Assembly: GCF_007750395.1 (NCBI RefSeq)
Contig: NZ_CP036281.1
Coordinates: 5,479,001-5,543,000, forward strand
Direction: 5' to 3'
Source of the DNA: Polystyrenella longa
Lineage (GTDB): Bacteria; Planctomycetota; Planctomycetia; Planctomycetales; Planctomycetaceae
DNA: 64,000 bases
The position numbers and the translations under genes were made by a program. Numbering within the stretch: the first letter of the stretch is position 1; every line of letters begins with the position of its first letter. Below the pieces are notes generated by a model. It was given only the letters and a program-made list of their open reading frames with translations. It was not told where the DNA came from and made no database searches. This document shows, in pieces, positions 52,781 to 61,002 of the stretch.

Positions 52781-54343
52781 TTAGTATGACGTTAAGAGGA
52801 GTGGATCTTCGTACGATTGTTTCATGCGTGAGTAAGCATTGTTGACTTTGATTCGGTAAGTCTCGATTTCGTCTTTTTCTTCGTCTTCAACAGCATGTTC
52901 CAGCATCTCCAGGTGCTCACGAAGGAGTCGAGATTTCATCGCTCGGTAGTCACTCAGTTCCCATTCTCGTAAATAGGTACTGACTTCGAGCTTTCGACTC
53001 CAGTCGTCGAGGAGTTCGATCCAGTAACTGGCGTGTTGTGCATCCCCTGTCATGGCTGCAGTGAGAACTTCTGCTCGGGCAATCTGCATCTCCTCAAAGA
53101 TTTCGTCTTTGGGAGGATAGTAGACAAAACAACCTACGATTGAGAATAAGATCAACATGCCGATGGCAACCATTCCAAGCACAGGGGCAGAGACTTGCCG
53201 ATCGAGTTTCGAGCCTTGCTCTCGCTCAGACTTCACCCGCAACCAGACCTCCACGTCATGTGTTTGTTCAACCTTTCTCAGCGCCAGTCCGCACGTCATG
53301 AGGACTCCGAGCATAGAGAGGGCGTACCACTCGTAAGGTAGAATGTCATGTCCCCATTTGGTTTTGATTGCCTGAATTGGATTAGAAGGAGCTAGATGAA
53401 ATGGCTGAGCGTAAATATCGAAAGCGTGACTGTGATTGGCTGGGTCTATGTCTGCCGGGAAAAGAGGCCTCTCCACTCCGTAAGCGATCCCCAGAACGAT
53501 TACTAATAGCAATGCGAACCACACTAATGTTTTCTGGAGACTGAAATTCCTGATCATCCAGTAAACTAAGCCTAGATTTAATCCCGCCCCCAGTGTGAGC
53601 AGGACGAAAGCGGCCCCCACCGAGTTGGCATGGGCAAACATCATCCCGAGTTGCGACATCGCCAGCATCGGTGTCGCATATACAGGTACAGCCAACGCTG
53701 ACATTAGTAGCGGAGCATAAGGATTGTCGAAATTCATGGACTTCTGCAAGCTGTTATGCGGCAGGAAGGCCCCTAACAATGCGACTCCCACCAAGCCTAT
53801 AGCAATGTACTTTAGCGAAGGCCCCACCGACTCACGGGCCGCAGAGATTCCAATTGAAAGAATCCGTTTGACACCTGGCTCAAGCATTTCTTCGGGCTCT
53901 GGTTTCTCTTTTGTCTCACTAAAGAAACGATCATACAACCCGCCTGTTATGGTCAGCAATACAAGTGAGCAAAAGGTAAAAGCAATGATGACGACTGGCT
54001 CAGACAACGTCAGACCGTACAGGAGGGAAAGTGGATTAAAAAGTGGAGCAGCCATAGCAAAGGCTAGAATAGTCCCCCCGGCAAGTCCTGCTCGTTTCAT
54101 TTGAGAAGCAATCGGAATGACGCCTAAAGAACATACAGGAAGCAACATGCCAATTCCCCAGGCTTGTATCAGAGATCGACGACTGTTCCCACCAAATAAA
54201 GCTCGGGTATGTGCAGCACCGAGCATTCGTTGAAGAATTGCCGCTACGAACAAACCAGTCAGGATGAAGGGAGCAGCCTGTGCCAGGCACTGAACGAACC
54301 GAACAATAAATCCGGAAATAATCATCAACAACATAACGAGCAT
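52781..54343 (-). CDS. UPF0718-type (ArsP/DUF318-like) permease with extra helical tail
   Basis: 520 residues. Two halves of a permease are recognisable: FVQCLAQAAPFILTGLFVAA...GMLLPVCSLGVIPIASQMKRAG...AMAAPLFNPLSLLYGLTLSEP, and later GLVGVALLGAFLPH...ALAVPVYATPMLAMSQLG...GAAFVLLTLGAGLNLGL. The cysteine near GMLLPVCSLGVIP matches the Cys essential in ArsP-type permeases. After further helices a ~110-residue charged helical tail (ARAEVLTAAMTGDAQHASYWIELLDDW) is attached, which is not usual for the family. Neighbours suggest transport of a metal or metal complex rather than organoarsenicals. It follows the HGHSHG lipoprotein by 40 nt. Confidence 0.8.
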   Translation of the reverse strand: MLVMLLMIISGFIVRFVQCLAQAAPFILTGLFVAAILQRMLGAAHTRALFGGNSRRSLIQAWGIGMLLPVCSLGVIPIASQMKRAGLAGGTILAFAMAAPLFNPLSLLYGLTLSEPVVIIAFTFCSLVLLTITGGLYDRFFSETKEKPEPEEMLEPGVKRILSIGISAARESVGPSLKYIAIGLVGVALLGAFLPHNSLQKSMNFDNPYAPLLMSALAVPVYATPMLAMSQLGMMFAHANSVGAAFVLLTLGAGLNLGLVYWMIRNFSLQKTLVWFALLLVIVLGIAYGVERPLFPADIDPANHSHAFDIYAQPFHLAPSNPIQAIKTKWGHDILPYEWYALSMLGVLMTCGLALRKVEQTHDVEVWLRVKSEREQGSKLDRQVSAPVLGMVAIGMLILFSIVGCFVYYPPKDEIFEEMQIARAEVLTAAMTGDAQHASYWIELLDDWSRKLEVSTYLREWELSDYRAMKSRLLREHLEMLEHAVEDEEKDEIETYRIKVNNAYSRMKQSYEDPLLLTSY

Positions 54344-54383: not shown

Positions 54384-54932
54384 TTACCTGGAACTAGGTT
54401 TTTCAGGCTTCGTTGATAAAGGAACAGATACTGCCGGACGATCGACGGCGAATGGGACCAGCAATACCTGCTTGTTCAATTGTGATTCCAGATCGGAGAG
54501 ATCTTCGACAGTGAGTGAACCCTGCTTTATCTTCAAATCCACGTTGTCACAGCTCTTCAGCATTTCTCGGCTGACGGCCTGTACCTGATTCCATTCCCCT
54601 TCTGCCATATCGGTATCCCCCGCGAGTTCGGGCAGCCAATGGATGAATTCTCTCAGTGTGATAATTTCGTCCTCAACATGATCAAGATGGCCTCCAGTCA
54701 GGTCTACATGAATGTGTTCTAGTCGTTTTTTGATTTCTGCAACGGCCTTCGCGAAAGTTTCGGGTTTGTACGATGGACCATGAGAATGTCCGTGATCATC
54801 ATCTTCTTTCTTCAGATCGGTCGGTAGCGAACTCGGCTTTGTTTCCGAAGGCTGACAACCGGTTAGCCCGAGTATTATTAGAACCTGAGCGCTGACGATT
54901 AATACAACGGATGATTGTGCATAAGCTCTCAT
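54384..54932 (-). CDS. Lipoprotein with HGHSHG metal-binding-type motif
   Basis: 182 residues. Lipobox LGLTGC indicates a lipid-anchored periplasmic protein. A short linker carries EDDDHGHSHGPSY, typical of zinc-binding His tracts. The remainder is helical (FAKAVAEIKKRLEHIHVDL, GGHLDHVEDEIITLREFIHWLPELAGDTDM), with more His residues spaced along it, and resembles the helical tail of the permease encoded just downstream. It probably acts as a periplasmic metal-binding partner of that permease. No named family is recognised. Confidence 0.75.
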   Translation of the reverse strand: MRAYAQSSVVLIVSAQVLIILGLTGCQPSETKPSSLPTDLKKEDDDHGHSHGPSYKPETFAKAVAEIKKRLEHIHVDLTGGHLDHVEDEIITLREFIHWLPELAGDTDMAEGEWNQVQAVSREMLKSCDNVDLKIKQGSLTVEDLSDLESQLNKQVLLVPFAVDRPAVSVPLSTKPEKPSSR

Positions 54933-54980: not shown

Positions 54981-55964
54981 TTATTTATGGTCAAACTCGG
55001 GAAGGGGGACGGTCCGTAATAGCTCTTCCAGCAGCGTCTCTCCTTCGTCGTATTCAAACCCAAGACGAACTGACAACACTGGCAACGCGGTCTCTTGCAG
55101 ATCCTCAGGAATGACGTAGGACCGCCGGGCAAGATATGCCGTCGCCTGAGCCGTCCGTTGCCAGATCAGTAAACCACGAGGTGAAATCCCGAGATTCAAT
55201 CCAGGATGCTCCCGAGTCGCTTTAGCAAATCGGACCATGTAGTCAAGCAACAGACTCTTCATCTCAATCTTCTCGACCTGATTCTGAATCACAGCAAGCG
55301 TTTTGAGATCCAGGGGGGAGTCCCGGCGAGAAGTGGAATCTTCTCCTTCGCCTTTAGCGATAGCCGCGTTTAACATCGCAACTTCATCGATTTGACCTGG
55401 ATATCCAATCGATAGCTTCATAGAAAAGCGATCACACTGAGCCTCTGGCAATGGAAAGGTTCCGTGTTGTTCCGAAGGGTTCTGAGTCGCAATAACGAAG
55501 AAATGGGGAGGCAGTTTATGGCAATGGGTATCAATCGTCACCTGCCGTTCAGCCATCGCCTCAAGCAGAGCACTCTGGGTTCGCGGAGTCGCGCGGTTGA
55601 TCTCGTCCGCAAGACAGATATCCGAGAACACTGGGCCTTTTCGGAACTCAAACGAATGATCCTTCTGATTAAAGATATTAAAGCCGGTAATATCGCTGGG
55701 CAATAAATCCGGGGTGCATTGCACTCGAGCAAAATGCCCAGAGATCGCGGCCGCCAGGGCTTTCGCCAACGTTGTTTTACCGAGTCCCGGTTTATCTTCG
55801 ATTAGCAGATGGCCTCGACTGAGAAGACATACCAGAACCATTCGCACTACCGACGTTTTTCCTTTTAACGCTTTATTCAGTGTTTCTTCCAGTTGCGATA
55901 TTAATTCGAGTTGTTCGTCAACGGCGATTAAAGGTCCGTTCGTTGTTGGAGACGTGATAGTCAT
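54981..55964 (-). CDS. MoxR-family AAA+ ATPase
   Basis: 327 residues. Walker A is seen as GHLLIEDKPGLGKTTLAKALA, Walker B as DICLADEINRATPRTQSALLEAM, and sensor 1 as FFVIATQNPSEQHGTFPLPEAQCDRF, followed by the C-terminal lid (ISPRGLLIWQRTAQA). MoxR ATPases remodel client complexes, often inserting metal cofactors, and occur with DUF58 and transglutaminase-like proteins. Here those two genes lie directly upstream, in the order DUF58, transglutaminase-like, MoxR, all minus strand; the gap to the transglutaminase-like gene is 64 nt. Confidence 0.93.
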   Translation of the reverse strand: MTITSPTTNGPLIAVDEQLELISQLEETLNKALKGKTSVVRMVLVCLLSRGHLLIEDKPGLGKTTLAKALAAAISGHFARVQCTPDLLPSDITGFNIFNQKDHSFEFRKGPVFSDICLADEINRATPRTQSALLEAMAERQVTIDTHCHKLPPHFFVIATQNPSEQHGTFPLPEAQCDRFSMKLSIGYPGQIDEVAMLNAAIAKGEGEDSTSRRDSPLDLKTLAVIQNQVEKIEMKSLLLDYMVRFAKATREHPGLNLGISPRGLLIWQRTAQATAYLARRSYVIPEDLQETALPVLSVRLGFEYDEGETLLEELLRTVPLPEFDHK

Positions 55965-56028: not shown

Positions 56029-58377
56029 TTACCCACGACGTAATCGTGACCATGAGAAATGACGGATCATGTCCTTCGAAACAAGAAGTGGGTCCAGAAG
56101 CATCCCGGGAGAATTCCCTCGGCTTCCGTAAATTGTTTCGTCAATCAAATACATAAAGTCCGATAGTTGCTCTCGCTCTTGTCCATTTAGTAGATACGAT
56201 TCCAGAAGCCACTTTCGTAAAGTAACTCCAACTGGACGGCGATGACCAACTAAAGCCAGATGACGGTCTAATAGATCTCGAGTGAGCAGCAACACTTTAT
56301 CTGGTCGTGAAGTCGCGATGCGTAGCCAGAAGCAACACATCTTCCAGTACCACAGGGCCAGGAGAGCCATCACTGCGTGACGCTGCCAAAGAATCATGCA
56401 AGTCAGAACGAATGACATTGTGATTCCCATCCAATGCGTGATTGACCAACTGATCACTTCTAGGAATGCGTGTTCAATTCGCTCGTATAATCGCAATGGC
56501 GGCCCCAGTTTCTCATACCCAGGTGTCGGTTCGAGTGTCTGCCATGTGTTGCCTCCAAGATCGACTTCGCACCAGAAATGAACGTCCTGGGAGTAAACCG
56601 ACGTGTGATCTTTTCTTCTATCATAGTTGTCCGGATCGACGTAGTAGCCACTGACGACTCGGCAGGAAATATCGAGTGACCGCAGTAATAGCATGGTCGC
56701 CGTGGCGAATTCGTAATCCGTCCCTTTTCTGGTTTCGAATAAAAAAGGAGTAATCGAAAGCGATTTCGAATCTTTATCGCCGATTATCGGGGATGAATTC
56801 TCTTCTACATGGTCATAGTTGTCTCGAACGTAGTTCAGGATTGAGACAACTTTTTCTCGCTTGAGAGTACATTCCGCAGTATTCTCATTCGCAAGTTCGA
56901 TGATGGGTAACATATCGGGCGTATCAGGGATCGAGATATATCGTTGTCGGATCGCTGAATACAGAACCTGTGCCGAATCGAAGTTCCGCTCATCCAGAAC
57001 GCGGGACCGCACATGTATCGGAACGAGATCCGGGAGAGCATCCCGGTCCAAGTGCATTACCCGGTGCTGCCCCTCGACGTAGAAATTGCGGGTGTTGAGA
57101 TCCTTAATGGCAATCCCTGTCCAGTGCAGAGGTGTCGGAATAATATTCGAATCGATTCCGACGATTTTGAGAACATGCGATTCTTCTGGAGAAAAGAAGT
57201 TGAAGGCGCAATCTTCCAGTGCCTCCAACCAGTGCATTTCGTCATGTTCGTTGAGAACGTATTCGGTCGAATTCGTCGAATTGTCACCGGGAATTAACTG
57301 GCTCCCGTCATAAAAGTCATAAGTCTCCATTCTTAGATGTAGCGGAACGCGCCCGACAACGTGAAAGATCGCCTTAGAAGTCGTACTTTCTACGTCCGAC
57401 CGCTTACGCCCTACCTTGTCACGCAACATTGAAAACTGTCGACCGGATTGCTGCATCGTTTTCATTTCTTCAACCAACTCAGGCAACAGTGTTTCCGTAC
57501 GATTGGGTGGGATCGCAATCATGCGATCGGAATTCTTAGGCTTGAATGGTTCGCCGTATTCTTCACTAAAGGAATCGTACAGACTCGGTTTGTCATCTTC
57601 TCGGAAAGGAGCATCGTCAAGCGGCGCGAATGACTGCACATTTTCCTTTCCTGGCACTAATGCATCACCATTTCCGATTCCACTGAGAGAATACTCATCT
57701 CGTCCTCCTTCCCCTCCTGATGTTGGGAAAAATCCTTGTAGCGACCAGATTGTTCTTCCCGATGCGAACGGGGCGAAAGCAATCACGATTAACACAGGGA
57801 AAATCGCCAAAGCCAGAAATCGCTTCAGCGAGTATTGACGTTGAGTGGCGTGAATTGTTCCGGAGTAACGTTTCAAGTACCGGGTAATCAGCCAGACTAT
57901 TGACGCGCACAGGTAAAGCCCCATCAGGACAATCGTAAGGCCAGAAGTCGGACTGAGGGCCATCGAGAACAGAAACACAAACAGGCTGATGGCAATCGTC
58001 AATGGTTGATATTGCCGCCAGCAGCAAATCATGGTGAACAACAGCAATTCATTTTTAAAGGCACGCACCATCACTACTTCAACGGATGAACCTCCATTAG
58101 GAATCAAACGCAAGATTGGCTCTGCTGCTAACGACACAATTGCTGTGAGAATGATTACTGGCATCAACGCGGGTAGTTCCCCACGGTAGAACTGCTTCCG
58201 ACGAAAAAAGACAACTCCGCCAATAAGCAGCGCCGTTTGTACGAGATAACTAACGAACAAATAGAGAGGCGTACGCACTTCTATCTCAACCAGCGAGTAT
58301 TGCCCCAGTGCTAACAGCGAAATCAGTCCCAAGCCGAGATGTTCTTTCAGAGGGACTTCCGACTGGCTAGTTAACAT
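56029..58377 (-). CDS. Membrane transglutaminase-like protein (TgpA/DUF3488 type) lacking the catalytic Cys
   Basis: 782 residues. About six N-terminal helices, a large periplasmic domain with a transglutaminase core at ~500-640, a membrane helix near 645-665, and a C-terminal DUF4129-like region (LLDRHLALVGHRRPVGVTLRKWL). At the usual RxGxCxxFA site the sequence is RKGTDYEFATAT, so the Cys is Asp (residue 554). The His (H600, DVHFWCEVDL) is present, and the third position reads LEPTPG. It is therefore probably a pseudoenzyme that binds peptides or partners rather than cutting them. The start overlaps the DUF58 gene by 11 nt. It forms a membrane module with the DUF58 and MoxR proteins. Confidence 0.88.
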   Translation of the reverse strand: MLTSQSEVPLKEHLGLGLISLLALGQYSLVEIEVRTPLYLFVSYLVQTALLIGGVVFFRRKQFYRGELPALMPVIILTAIVSLAAEPILRLIPNGGSSVEVVMVRAFKNELLLFTMICCWRQYQPLTIAISLFVFLFSMALSPTSGLTIVLMGLYLCASIVWLITRYLKRYSGTIHATQRQYSLKRFLALAIFPVLIVIAFAPFASGRTIWSLQGFFPTSGGEGGRDEYSLSGIGNGDALVPGKENVQSFAPLDDAPFREDDKPSLYDSFSEEYGEPFKPKNSDRMIAIPPNRTETLLPELVEEMKTMQQSGRQFSMLRDKVGRKRSDVESTTSKAIFHVVGRVPLHLRMETYDFYDGSQLIPGDNSTNSTEYVLNEHDEMHWLEALEDCAFNFFSPEESHVLKIVGIDSNIIPTPLHWTGIAIKDLNTRNFYVEGQHRVMHLDRDALPDLVPIHVRSRVLDERNFDSAQVLYSAIRQRYISIPDTPDMLPIIELANENTAECTLKREKVVSILNYVRDNYDHVEENSSPIIGDKDSKSLSITPFLFETRKGTDYEFATATMLLLRSLDISCRVVSGYYVDPDNYDRRKDHTSVYSQDVHFWCEVDLGGNTWQTLEPTPGYEKLGPPLRLYERIEHAFLEVISWSITHWMGITMSFVLTCMILWQRHAVMALLALWYWKMCCFWLRIATSRPDKVLLLTRDLLDRHLALVGHRRPVGVTLRKWLLESYLLNGQEREQLSDFMYLIDETIYGSRGNSPGMLLDPLLVSKDMIRHFSWSRLRRG

Positions 58378-59647
58378 GGCAATGTCCCCTTCTTAGCCAG
58401 TTAGCTCTCAAGTCATCTTGCCAACGGGTGCTTTGAACAGAACTCCGACAATCAGAGTTTGCAACTGGCTCTAAAGGGAGGCTTCCCACTTCGATCCAAG
58501 AGGTTGAATGATGATTCCTGGATTTGCTCATGTATTCAATGAGTGGTGATTCAGCCGTGGTTATAACAATTGCCGTTCCAAGACGGGAACGAGAGTAGTC
58601 TTGCGAAGAGTTCGTTTCTGATATGCCTCCATAGGGAACACGCGCAAGAGCGTCCATGTACCGTTCGTAATTCCGGTGATTTCCTCCCAACTGATAGATT
58701 TCTCCACTCATGTCACAAAGAACATACGCGTTCTGCCGAACAAGTGATTCCACAACGCTCGCCGCTATTGAAAGCACTTCCTCCACTTTCCGGTCCCACG
58801 CCGGAGAGCGTTCTAGATAACTACAAATATCGACAATCACCTCTGCGGAAGCCGATGCGGGAGATTGCCGCTCGTTCACAATCAGCGACTGCATTCGTGC
58901 TGTTTGGCCCCAATGAATTCGACGCAGGGAATCTCCTTCACGAAAGGCTCTCGTTCCAATCAAGTCTCCTAAGTCTCCTGCTTTTCGATCAGTCATATTC
59001 TGTTCGTGAAAATCGAGTGAGCTTGAATCAGGAAGGCCTTCCAGACGAACCGTTTCCGGCCACACGATCAATTCTCCAAGACATGATATTGGGGAACGGC
59101 AGGTGAATAGTCCCAACGGAAAACTGGTTTCAATTTGTGGCGTTTCTAGCGGATAGACTCCACGTTGCTCGGGCGAAAATTCCCAACTGAACTCAGCGGT
59201 TGTCCAGGCGGACATCCGAGTGAGAGAGAAGCCGTTTACCCTCTGGGATTCTGGGAAGAAGCCTTTGGACACCATCAACCCCCAAAGTGGCCATGGCCAT
59301 TTGTTGGTCAACTTCAGGCTGACCTGAACCCGCTGTCCGACTCGTGTCCGGCGCGTTCCCATGGTCAAATCACCACGGAGTCCACGCACAGTGATGAACG
59401 GCCAGACAATGGCGATTAGCAGCACTACTGTCATGGCGAGCATCGCCAGGAATACCGTTTGATTCATGAACAGCGCGAGCAACAAAGCGCTCAAAATTCC
59501 TCCGCCAATCAAGGCCAGCGGATGCTTCAACCAGTAAACAAATTTATTCACTTGCGGGCAGAAGTCACGTGTCAGTAGATCATGAAATCGCTTGCTGAAA
59601 GTGTGAGTCGATGTTGAACCATTTAGTTCGGAAACGCTGGTGGACAT
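58367..59647 (-). CDS. DUF58-family membrane protein
   Basis: 426 residues from the ATG at 59647 (MSTSVSELNG), chosen because GAGGTG lies ~7 nt upstream; the frame is open 35 codons further. Two helices near 42-85 (LALIGGGILSALLLALFM, AMLAMTVVLLIAIVW) precede the beta-rich domain (GTRRTRVGQRVQVSLKLTN, GVYPLETPQIETSFPLGLF). The DUF58 signature GDLIGTRAFREGDSLRRIHWGQTAR follows, then a vWA-like end. Partner of MoxR ATPases; probably assembles or activates a periplasmic client. A 389-nt gap to the next upstream gene may hold a separate promoter. Confidence 0.9.
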   Translation of the reverse strand: MSTSVSELNGSTSTHTFSKRFHDLLTRDFCPQVNKFVYWLKHPLALIGGGILSALLLALFMNQTVFLAMLAMTVVLLIAIVWPFITVRGLRGDLTMGTRRTRVGQRVQVSLKLTNKWPWPLWGLMVSKGFFPESQRVNGFSLTRMSAWTTAEFSWEFSPEQRGVYPLETPQIETSFPLGLFTCRSPISCLGELIVWPETVRLEGLPDSSSLDFHEQNMTDRKAGDLGDLIGTRAFREGDSLRRIHWGQTARMQSLIVNERQSPASASAEVIVDICSYLERSPAWDRKVEEVLSIAASVVESLVRQNAYVLCDMSGEIYQLGGNHRNYERYMDALARVPYGGISETNSSQDYSRSRLGTAIVITTAESPLIEYMSKSRNHHSTSWIEVGSLPLEPVANSDCRSSVQSTRWQDDLRANWLRRGHCHVN

Positions 59648-60036
59648 AACGCACCTCATATCGGGGTGAGAATTCCATTGGGAAAAGACAACGCGAGCGA
59701 TAGAGAGGTATGCACGCATAATATGCGGAATTCCTCTGATCTCACGTTCCACGAATAATCCTCAGAGAAGCGGGCCAACCGTCGGGCGGCAGCCGTTCGC
59801 TTTCTCGTCGTTAATCGCCGTCCTGCCTTTACAGAATAAGACGCAAGCATGCCTGTCAGCCTGACCTACGGTTATTCAGACATGCTCAACCCTCACTCAT
59901 GGCGCGAGCAAGTTAGCCTGAAGATAGAAAGGCGACGTAAAACGCGGATCAAAATGGAGCTTCTAACCTTCAAAGAGCTTAGAAACTGCGCAGCGTAGAC
60001 CCGATGCGTAAATACATTCCGTTAAAAGAAGGACGC
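59648..60036. other. Intergenic gap inside the metal locus
   Basis: No supported gene. It carries the ribosome binding site of the DUF58 gene near 59655-59660. A promoter for the DUF58/transglutaminase/MoxR set is likely here, but I cannot place it with confidence. Confidence 0.4.
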
Positions 60037-60468
60037 TTAGCTCAGCGTCGGAGGTCCGCGGCGGTTGAAAGCAACAACAACGCGACGACATTCCTGTTGA
60101 TAATCAGAAATCGCAGCGTACGTGACCGCCTGAAAGAGAGAGGGCGACTCAACTTGGAGAGTCACACGGGACGACAGGCCGAAGAACTGACAAACGAGGC
60201 AGTGGTCTGCGTCATGAGAAGGACGGGGCTGCAATGGTACAGACGAGTCATCTGCTACCGGTACATGACACGAATGCTGACCATGATGGTGGTGACTATG
60301 ATGACCGTGAGAACAATGAGCATGTTCACCTGAAGGCAAAGTCGATTCGTGCACGACAGAATGCGAATGAGTGCAGACCCCTAGCCATTCCTGCACGGCA
60401 TGCGTCCCCGCGTTACCCAACAGGGCTACGGTCACAAAGGCCGAGATGAATAGACTACGAAACAGCAT
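60037..60468 (-). CDS. His/Cys-rich small membrane protein, DUF2946-like (first copy)
   Basis: 143 residues. N-terminal signal or anchor (FRSLFISAFVTVALLGNAGTHA), then a long His tract (SHSVV...GEHAHCSHGHHSHHHHGQH), DADHCLVCQFFGLSSR with HCxxC, a hydrophobic stretch, and the terminal RGPPTLS. It is the paralogue of the protein at 52326. The His run strongly suggests zinc, copper or nickel binding outside the cytoplasm. It is the first gene of the locus, with a good promoter and a palindromic site just upstream, so its product may be made when the metal is scarce. Confidence 0.8.
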   Translation of the reverse strand: MLFRSLFISAFVTVALLGNAGTHAVQEWLGVCTHSHSVVHESTLPSGEHAHCSHGHHSHHHHGQHSCHVPVADDSSVPLQPRPSHDADHCLVCQFFGLSSRVTLQVESPSLFQAVTYAAISDYQQECRRVVVAFNRRGPPTLS

Positions 60469-60496: not shown

Positions 60497-60545
60497 AATG
60501 CAAACTTATTGCACCTGCATTATATGCTACCAAGACCTACGCCAA
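60497..60545 (-). promoter_or_regulatory. Promoter and candidate Zur-type operator of the metal locus
   Basis: Reading the minus strand, TTGGCG, a 15-nt spacer and TATAAT (60524-60519) form a plausible sigma-70 promoter. Just downstream, where a repressor would block, lies TGCAA-N5-TTGCA (60499-60513, a perfect 5-bp inverted repeat). An overlapping outer pair AATGCA/TGCATT spans 60497-60521. Fur-family Zur repressors bind AT-rich palindromes in this position upstream of zinc genes. The assignment to Zur comes from gene content, not from a match to a known planctomycete consensus. Confidence 0.4.
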
Positions 60546-60584
60546 TGAAAAGTGAAATGTGCGAAAAATCAATTATTTAAATTG

Positions 60585-61002
60585 AAACGACGTAAGTCGT
60601 AAAAGACTCGCAACGAATTCGCTCAGCTCCCCACGTGGGGTTTTCGTTCGCAAACCTCAGAATCTGTTCGACGATCTCCTGTCGAATACGAGGTCGACCA
60701 ACACGAGGTTTATTTGAAGTGTAATTCCATTTCCGGGCAATCAACTCCCGGTGCCAGCGGAGGATGGTATCAGGAGTAAAGATCGCGCTGAGTTCACTCA
60801 GCAACTTCCGGTCGAGCATTTTCCCTTTGACCGCCAGGCGACGACGCTGTTCGTCAGTGAGCAGAATGCGTTTCTTGCCGACCTTTTCGCGGAGGATACT
60901 ATTTTCGGTCTTGAGATATTCAATCGCCAATTGCTGTTCGCGATTCACCCAACTTACCAGAGCGAAAACCAGCAGGTTCCAAGGCTGCATCACAGTTTCC
61001 AT
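60585..61002 (-). pseudogene. Transposase N-terminal fragment
   Basis: METVMQPWNLLVFALVSWVN and following codons match residues 1 to ~128 of the transposase, up to NPTWGAERI, after which the homology stops. The whole catalytic core is missing. Confidence 0.85.

Follow-up and report, generated by a model that had tools for sequence, protein, structure and literature searches.

What does a transglutaminase-like protein do once its catalytic cysteine is gone? The question is raised by a gene at 56029..58377 on the minus strand of a 64,000-nucleotide stretch of the Polystyrenella longa genome (contig NZ_CP036281.1, positions 5,479,001 to 5,543,000 of the forward strand), the whole of which is referred to below as the window. 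The gene starts with an ATG codon, is open throughout, and is predicted to encode a TgpA-like membrane protein of 782 residues with a Transglut_core domain that lacks the catalytic Cys. The reading favored here, to which a probability of about 0.6 is attached, is that the product is a non-catalytic TgpA-like protein in a metal-starvation operon, with zinc as the most likely metal, under the control of a Fur-family (Zur-like) repressor.

The active-site stretch of the window protein is FLFETRKGTDYEFATATM, with the motif RKGTDYEFA. Codon 554 (56716..56718, minus strand), at the position of the catalytic Cys, is GAT, and in a phmmer alignment the encoded Asp pairs with the Cys of TgpA 6g49, so that codon and alignment both bear out an earlier note on this DNA that had placed an Asp at the RxGxCxxFA site. 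The same note had stated that the His is kept and that the third triad position is Glu, and this also holds: codon 600 (56578..56580, minus strand), within DVHFWCEV, encodes the triad His, and codon 616 (56530..56532, minus strand), within LEPTPGYE, encodes Glu at the position of the triad Asp. Transglut_core (PF01841) is the sole Pfam match of the protein, covering residues 494-617 with 64.1 bits against a cut-off of 23, and no NCBIfam match was found for this protein or for the DUF58 protein encoded beside it. A sequencing error at codon 554, a possibility raised in the earlier note, is very unlikely, since the nearest relative (L008, 63% identical, site GGTDYEFATATM) has the same residue, and Asp is the commonest residue at the site in every family sample. 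A substitute Cys in the pocket, also raised there, was not found, as no Cys column is listed as invariant or nearly so for alignments of 21, 24 or 70 members.

By descent the window protein is TgpA-like, as judged from sequence comparison and a structural model, but without the defining catalytic residue of that enzyme family. The AlphaFold2 model has a mean predicted local distance difference test score of 82.6, with 10-residue blocks over 541-620 scoring between 88 and 97, and is laid out as seven N-terminal membrane-length helices, followed by a mixed part and then by helices at the C-terminus. Among solved structures it best matches two of the TgpA periplasmic domain, 6g4h and 6g49, with Z scores of 22.3 and 22.0 and root-mean-square deviations of 3.1 and 3.3 over 250 and 258 residues at 18% identity; the next solved match after TgpA has a Z score of 10.3, and the Foldseek E value for TgpA is about 1e-11. 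When the family was compared by hhalign with eight Cys-type TgpA-like paralogues, the two groups aligned with 99.8% probability over 577 columns. The Transglut_core domain is present in 24 of 24 members and DUF4129 is found by Pfam in one of the 24, while TgpA_N (PF11992) is found in none of them at an E value of 0.001, though some of the N-terminal membrane region does align in the profile comparison. The likeness to TgpA of Pseudomonas aeruginosa lies in the periplasmic fold (Z 22), the membrane-anchored architecture of the model and the triad His, whereas the window protein differs in having no catalytic Cys, Glu for the triad Asp, and no TgpA_N Pfam match. Both kinds are present in the window genome, where a Cys-type paralogue of 823 residues (L001/L117) resembles the present protein in its Transglut_core domain, in the 99.8% hhalign match between groups and in an adjoining DUF58 gene, but has GHCEYFA with Cys, DPTPG with Asp, and a TgpA_N match of 74 bits.

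The absence of the Cys extends over the family as sampled in several sets (rows of relatives, scan loci, phylum-sample loci and combined-tree rows) that overlap in part. A first search covered 59 related genomes, one of them that of the window, and gave matches in 50, of which 26 were strong (E <= 1e-29, taken as orthologues) and the remainder weak only; 18 of the 26 strong-match genomes also had a weaker second match. The site is Asp in 24 of the 26 orthologues and Ala in the other two (L020 and L021), the His is present in 26/26, and the third residue is Glu in 25 and Asp in L021. A scan of named genomes, one per species over 84,980 species, was made with the pattern Wx[TPV][VLI]EPTPGY, which spans the Glu and matched 90 stretches, 84 of them confirmed and 80 kept; going by their titles, 78 of these loci are from Planctomycetota and two are labelled merely 'bacterium'. 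Here the site is Asp in 60 loci, Ser in 10, Ala in four, Pro in three, and Asn, Thr and Arg in one each, with the His in 80/80 and the Glu in 80/80, the latter count being skewed by the pattern itself. Going again by title, the Ser-bearing rows include several from marine genomes of Mariniblastus and Pirellulaceae. In an evenly drawn sample of 294 Planctomycetota, for which at least 90% completeness was requested, the family was found in 31 genomes, all 31 in the window's own class. Thirty phylum-sample loci, the window's own included, were chosen without the Glu pattern, and have D-H-E in 28 cases, E-H-E in one and A-H-D in one, giving Glu in 29 of 30 in a set free of pattern bias.

Cys was found at the site in 0/80 scan loci, 0/24 relatives' rows, 0/30 phylum-sample loci and 0/93 combined-tree rows, these sets again overlapping. 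Asp554 is preferred but dispensable, and the Cys is lost in every row examined. By comparison, His600 is invariant in all 93, 80 and 30 rows of the combined tree, the scan and the phylum sample, Trp602 is present in 93/93 combined-tree rows, and Glu616 in 92/93, with Asp in the remaining one; conservation this strict at the three positions suggests a pocket that is still in use. Three variants of the family can be mentioned at this point. L020 and L021, with Ala at the Asp site, have an altered third motif, ENAPGY in L020 and DPSPGY (Asp for Glu) in L021. In L013:1396-3912, a long His-rich insert stands immediately before the active site, and L163 (G049:C40) is a second Asp-type copy in a genome already holding one, with no permease adjoining.

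Is the gene, then, simply eroding? A tree was built from 93 distinct rows out of 103 (L037 was dropped as identical to L010) by a quick method, with the site columns excluded; it is unrooted and without bootstrap. On this tree the Asp label needs 7 changes, 7/7 of which are forced by supported branches. The idea in the earlier note that Asp might be fixed in planctomycetes is thus contradicted by these label changes and by the replacement of Asp in 20 of 80 scan loci, often with the operon in place, and the replacements argue against the Asp itself being indispensable as a metal ligand or nucleophile. The ratio of nonsynonymous to synonymous substitution rates (dN/dS) is 0.07-0.29 in 11 of 12 close pairs and 0.42 in the twelfth, and in a thirteenth pair, the window's own, synonymous sites are saturated. 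Close pairs with Ala, Ser, Pro or Thr/Pro at the site have ratios of 0.07-0.29, and pairs with Asp on both sides 0.13-0.23, with one at 0.42 that may be explained by the frames having been taken from stop to stop, some with non-coding ends. Purifying selection continues in the Ala, Ser and Pro lineages. Gene decay is ruled out by this selection, and the statement in the earlier note that the module is not decaying agrees with a family that is conserved and under constraint. Where Asp is lost, Arg550 tends to be lost as well: about 4.2 of 7 independent pairs go this way and 0 the opposite way (median sign-test p 0.125, for a position picked among many), a hint that the former nucleophile loop may be eroding as a unit. 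An apparent co-variation between Asp554 and Asp598 (Fisher p 2.6e-5) was rejected, because independent pairs on the tree do not bear it out, about 1.2 of 7 going the same way.

The gene belongs to a set of six co-directional genes that runs from 60468 down to 52781 on the minus strand. The first (60037..60468) encodes a small secreted His/Cys-rich protein of 143 residues, with a signal peptide recognized by eye and a CLVCQFFGL motif; it has no Pfam match, and its relative L082 matches DUF2946 below the cut-off, making it weakly DUF2946-like. Next come the DUF58 gene (58367..59752; PF01882, 28.6 bits), which shares 11 bp with the start of the TgpA-like gene, the TgpA-like gene itself, and a gene for a MoxR-type AAA+ ATPase (54981..55964; AAA_3, 204 bits, and AAA_lid_2). 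DUF58 and MoxR partners had been called intact in the earlier note, and both are indeed open reading frames with Pfam matches. The last two genes encode a lipoprotein (54384..54932) with a His-rich stretch, DDHGHSHGP, an LTGC lipobox recognized by eye and no Pfam match, and an ArsP_1-type permease of 520 residues (52781..54343; PF03773, 81.6 bits). There is no ABC gene among the six.

Much of this arrangement recurs with the family. By profile, the 80 scan loci hold DUF58 in 74 cases, MoxR in 73, the permease in 66, the small protein in 30, and the lipoprotein in 32 (set A) and 8 (set B), with Pfam confirming these assignments for examples. Where at least 4.5 kb is available downstream, 56 of 62 loci have the permease, 54 with it immediately downstream in the same orientation, and all 67 permeases (66 from the 80 loci, plus that of the window) have an ArsP_1 match. 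A later set of 19 loci, from which one was left out as a duplicate (L233 = L038), has the permease nearby in 17 of 18, with none at L238. Stretches with at least 5 His in 25 residues occur in the lipoprotein at 18/32 (set A) and 6/8 (set B) loci, and in the small protein at 23 of 30. As a control, 34 loci were taken around weak-match transglutaminase genes of this same group of related genomes, some of which do not hold the family; the control set contains L163 (a family member), L166 (an other-type transglutaminase) and one locus with no transglutaminase frame that could be aligned, and all three were kept in the neighborhood count. The fetched flanks of these 34 loci hold DUF58 in 25 cases and MoxR in 8, and the permease, small protein, lipoproteins, Fur family, ZIP and ABC-3 in 0. 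An alignable domain is present in 33 control rows, 32 with Cys, the exception being L163. His600 and Trp602 are invariant in both family and control rows, whereas other positions set the two apart: P553 in 76/93 family rows (His in 29/33 controls), Y555 in 80/93 (Glu in 29/33), and E616 in 92/93 (Asp in 30/33, Glu in 3/33), with Y621 in 93/93 family rows. Two observations on the permease can be added. Residues H306 and D309, in an HTHAFD-like motif of the C-terminal half (residues 306-309), are kept in at least 90% of 67 rows and are a possible metal contact; and L239 has a ZIP-like gene, two Fur-family genes, the permease (upstream), DUF58 and a cysteine-less TgpA-like gene within about 10 kb.

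A palindrome resembling the boxes of the Fur family (Zur/Nur-type), GTGCAATAAGTTTGCAT (60498..60514, no strand assigned), lies 29 bp upstream of the ATG of the first gene, and its core, TGCAA-N5-TTGCA, is perfect. Scored against the string TTGCAA-N5-TTGCAA, 99 upstream stretches include 7 with at most one mismatch and 17 with at most two, versus 0 and about 2 in shuffles. Counted per locus and for the first gene only, with seven near-identical loci and those without an identified first gene left out (64 remain, window included), a box with at most two mismatches is found in 15/64, versus 4.0% of 2455 random same-locus segments, and in 1/63 control-gene upstreams. The later set has the box in 8 of 18 loci, versus a background of 3.8%. 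From sequence, this is a putative Fur-family-like box at the operon promoter, enriched over loci. For three other Zur consensus strings, of the cyanobacterial, proteobacterial and mycobacterial types, no clear excess over shuffles was seen, the mycobacterial one being slightly up (at most four mismatches in 9/99 stretches versus 3.8 in shuffles). Within the 6.1 Mb genome the perfect core occurs 6 times and a reversed control pattern 4 times. Besides the window's own, these six cores include the only exact TTGCAA-N5-TTGCAA in the genome, which is upstream of an ABC transporter, consisting of an FtsX-type permease with an HDHGH-rich loop and an ATPase. Two Fur-family genes are present in the window genome, one of which (L194) is similar by eye to Fur genes found near the operon elsewhere.

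If the favored reading is right, the gene would yield a full-length inner-membrane protein of the TgpA-like kind. Its periplasmic transglutaminase domain, having no nucleophile, would no longer act as a transglutaminase, and the protein would instead serve for binding or as a scaffold, without catalysis, within a metal-handling machine. The other parts of the machine would be the DUF58 protein, the MoxR ATPase, the often His-rich periplasmic proteins and the ArsP_1-type permease. A Fur-family protein would bind the box and respond to zinc, and the operon would probably import metal rather than export it. MoxR/VWA pairs help metal-cofactor insertion, and the MoxR/DUF58 pair may drive assembly or a conformational change. 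The kept His600/Trp602/Glu616 groove, with Asp554 where present, may bind a partner peptide or a metal, and either ligand would fit what is conserved there. Zinc is most likely as the first candidate for a metal-starvation system, with nickel or others possible. The earlier note had proposed a pseudoenzyme with a binding or metal-linked role, and a non-enzymatic, metal-linked role does fit the context of gene block and box; an Asp fixed across the family does not survive. MoxR-DUF58-transglutaminase gene sets are common among bacteria, and little is known of what they do. In the present case the catalytic residue has gone but the genes have stayed together, linked to a metal-type permease, His-rich proteins and a Fur-family box, and this points to a concrete, testable function, namely metal handling. 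It suggests that the core task of the module need not be transglutaminase chemistry, and ArsP_1-type permeases would gain a candidate role in planctomycete zinc handling. A far-reaching version of this scheme, itself rather unlikely, would have an enzyme module turned into an ATP-driven metal-acquisition machine, in which the altered pocket (Cys to Asp, Asp to Glu) is a periplasmic Zn2+ relay from His-rich lipoproteins to the ArsP_1-type permease, and in which a planctomycete Zur reads TTGCAA-N5-TTGCAA.

A number of findings weigh against a metal-starvation operon under a Zur-like repressor. The window box itself mismatches TTGCAA-N5-TTGCAA at 2 of 12 positions, and the enrichment among the 64 loci was scored with a string picked from a palindrome list of the same operon upstreams, before the test on the later set. 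Among the 8 later loci with a box there are two closely related-looking pairs (L241/L242 and L243/L244), and 49/64 and 10/18 loci have no box within two mismatches. The number of perfect cores in the genome is by itself unremarkable, the window box being notable by its position, and the other 4 perfect cores precede no evident metal gene. The box also resembles the nickel-type Nur box of Streptomyces, a likeness for which a literature search gave only unrelated papers; nickel or another metal is thus possible for the box. Among the neighbors, the fetched flanks of the 80 loci hold the Fur family at only 6, ABC-3 at 4 and ZIP at 2, and by the count used the lipoprotein is not His-rich at 14/32 and 2/8 loci, nor the small protein at 7/30. 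The permease stands elsewhere in 2 of the 62 loci (upstream on the other strand at L085, about 9 kb off on the other strand at L099), is lacking in 6 of the 62 in spite of the room (L058, L063, L068, L105, L109 and L112), and is missing as well beside the second Asp-type copy, L163. Finally, ArsP_1 permeases include organoarsenical exporters.

Other explanations of the altered pocket have to be set against the same evidence. One of them, possible but doubtful, is that D-H-E is a metal site, with Asp554, His600 and Glu616 (perhaps also Asp598, two residues before the His) holding Zn2+ or a similar ion in a periplasmic metallochaperone or relay that feeds the permease. Such a site would be in keeping with the retention of D-H-E in 28/30 phylum-sample loci, E-H-E in one more and an invariant His, with the metal-type operon context, with the His-rich run just before the active site in L013, and with the conserved H306 and D309 of the permease. 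However, many of the 20/80 loci with Ser, Ala, Pro, Asn, Thr or Arg at the Asp position have the whole operon, permease included, and the 554/598 co-variation fails on the tree, with about 1.2 of 7 pairs going the same way. The geometry of a normal triad, which is established, places the third acid behind the His, such that the three ligands would converge only after rearrangement. The Asp replacements also bear on the proposal of a working enzyme with a new mechanism, either an Asp nucleophile in an Asp-His-Glu triad, for which haloalkane dehalogenases are a precedent, or a metallo-hydrolase. In its favor, the fold, Trp602 and the triad-like residues have all been retained, and no other residue is as common as Asp at its position, but selection persists in spite of 7 label changes and of Ala, Pro, Arg, Ser, Asn or Thr in place of the supposed nucleophile, and the tendency of the nearby R550 to be lost along with the Asp hints that the nucleophile loop has been eroding as a unit; this proposal is very improbable.

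The remaining alternative, quite unlikely, keeps the pseudoenzyme but separates it from metals, the operon being one for cell-envelope assembly and its linkage to metal genes incidental. There is some precedent, in that MoxR-DUF58-transglutaminase sets occur elsewhere, for instance in the bifidobacterial PFNA cluster (PMC8430577, in the portion available), and that TgpA is required for viability in Pseudomonas (PMC3507681, likewise in excerpt); moreover, the permease, the box or the His-rich proteins are missing at some loci. Against an incidental linkage stand a permease at 56/62 and 17/18 loci versus 0/34 controls, an enriched box, and small-protein and lipoprotein genes that are found at 0/34 control loci.

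Parts of the system favored here, a non-catalytic TgpA-like protein in a metal operon, have counterparts in the literature. Natural loss of the nucleophile is known for papain-like families, with Ser for Cys in menin, DUF2145, DUF2272, DUF3750 and APC5867 (PMC10318531). As in the window protein, the nucleophile is lost there and other active-site residues are kept, but the replacement is Ser, and section 6 of that paper names no Asp replacement and no metal operon. MoxR ATPases are described as chaperones for the assembly of protein complexes in the available portion of PMC8430577. For the permease, the upstream region of BAS1632, an ArsP_1-superfamily permease gene of another bacterium, is bound by Zur in an electrophoretic mobility shift assay, according to an excerpt of PMC6336718; this places the same permease superfamily under a zinc regulator, whereas no transglutaminase-like, DUF58 or MoxR gene is mentioned in that excerpt. 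The Zur-controlled zrg genes of Vibrio encode a predicted zinc-binding protein, an ABC pair, a small DUF2607 protein and proteins of unknown function, as given in part of PMC9817125. ZrgABCDE, the zinc uptake system of Vibrio, has a parallel in the window genome in an ABC pair that resembles ZrgBC, found elsewhere and preceded by a box of this type, whereas the present operon has no ABC transporter and has instead an ArsP_1-type permease with DUF58, MoxR and TgpA-like genes. Neither this gene set nor Cys-less transglutaminase-like proteins tied to zinc were found described in the literature searched, which was mostly outside subscription journals, and the available text of PMC7159879 does not describe the present operon. 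An Asp-for-Cys TgpA-like branch in what appears to be a metal-type operon has no earlier description that could be found in that literature, the TgpA-like kind itself being known.

Two minor observations concern the surroundings of the boxes. The ZrgBC-like ABC pair lies at L192:6471-8665 (genome C1, about 4256970-4259164), and the two proteins encoded downstream of it have a DNDICCFG/DNGKCCFG motif and no Pfam match at an E value of 0.01. In the window, a fragment resembling a transposase or integrase by eye (60577-61002, minus strand) lies directly upstream of the box of the operon.

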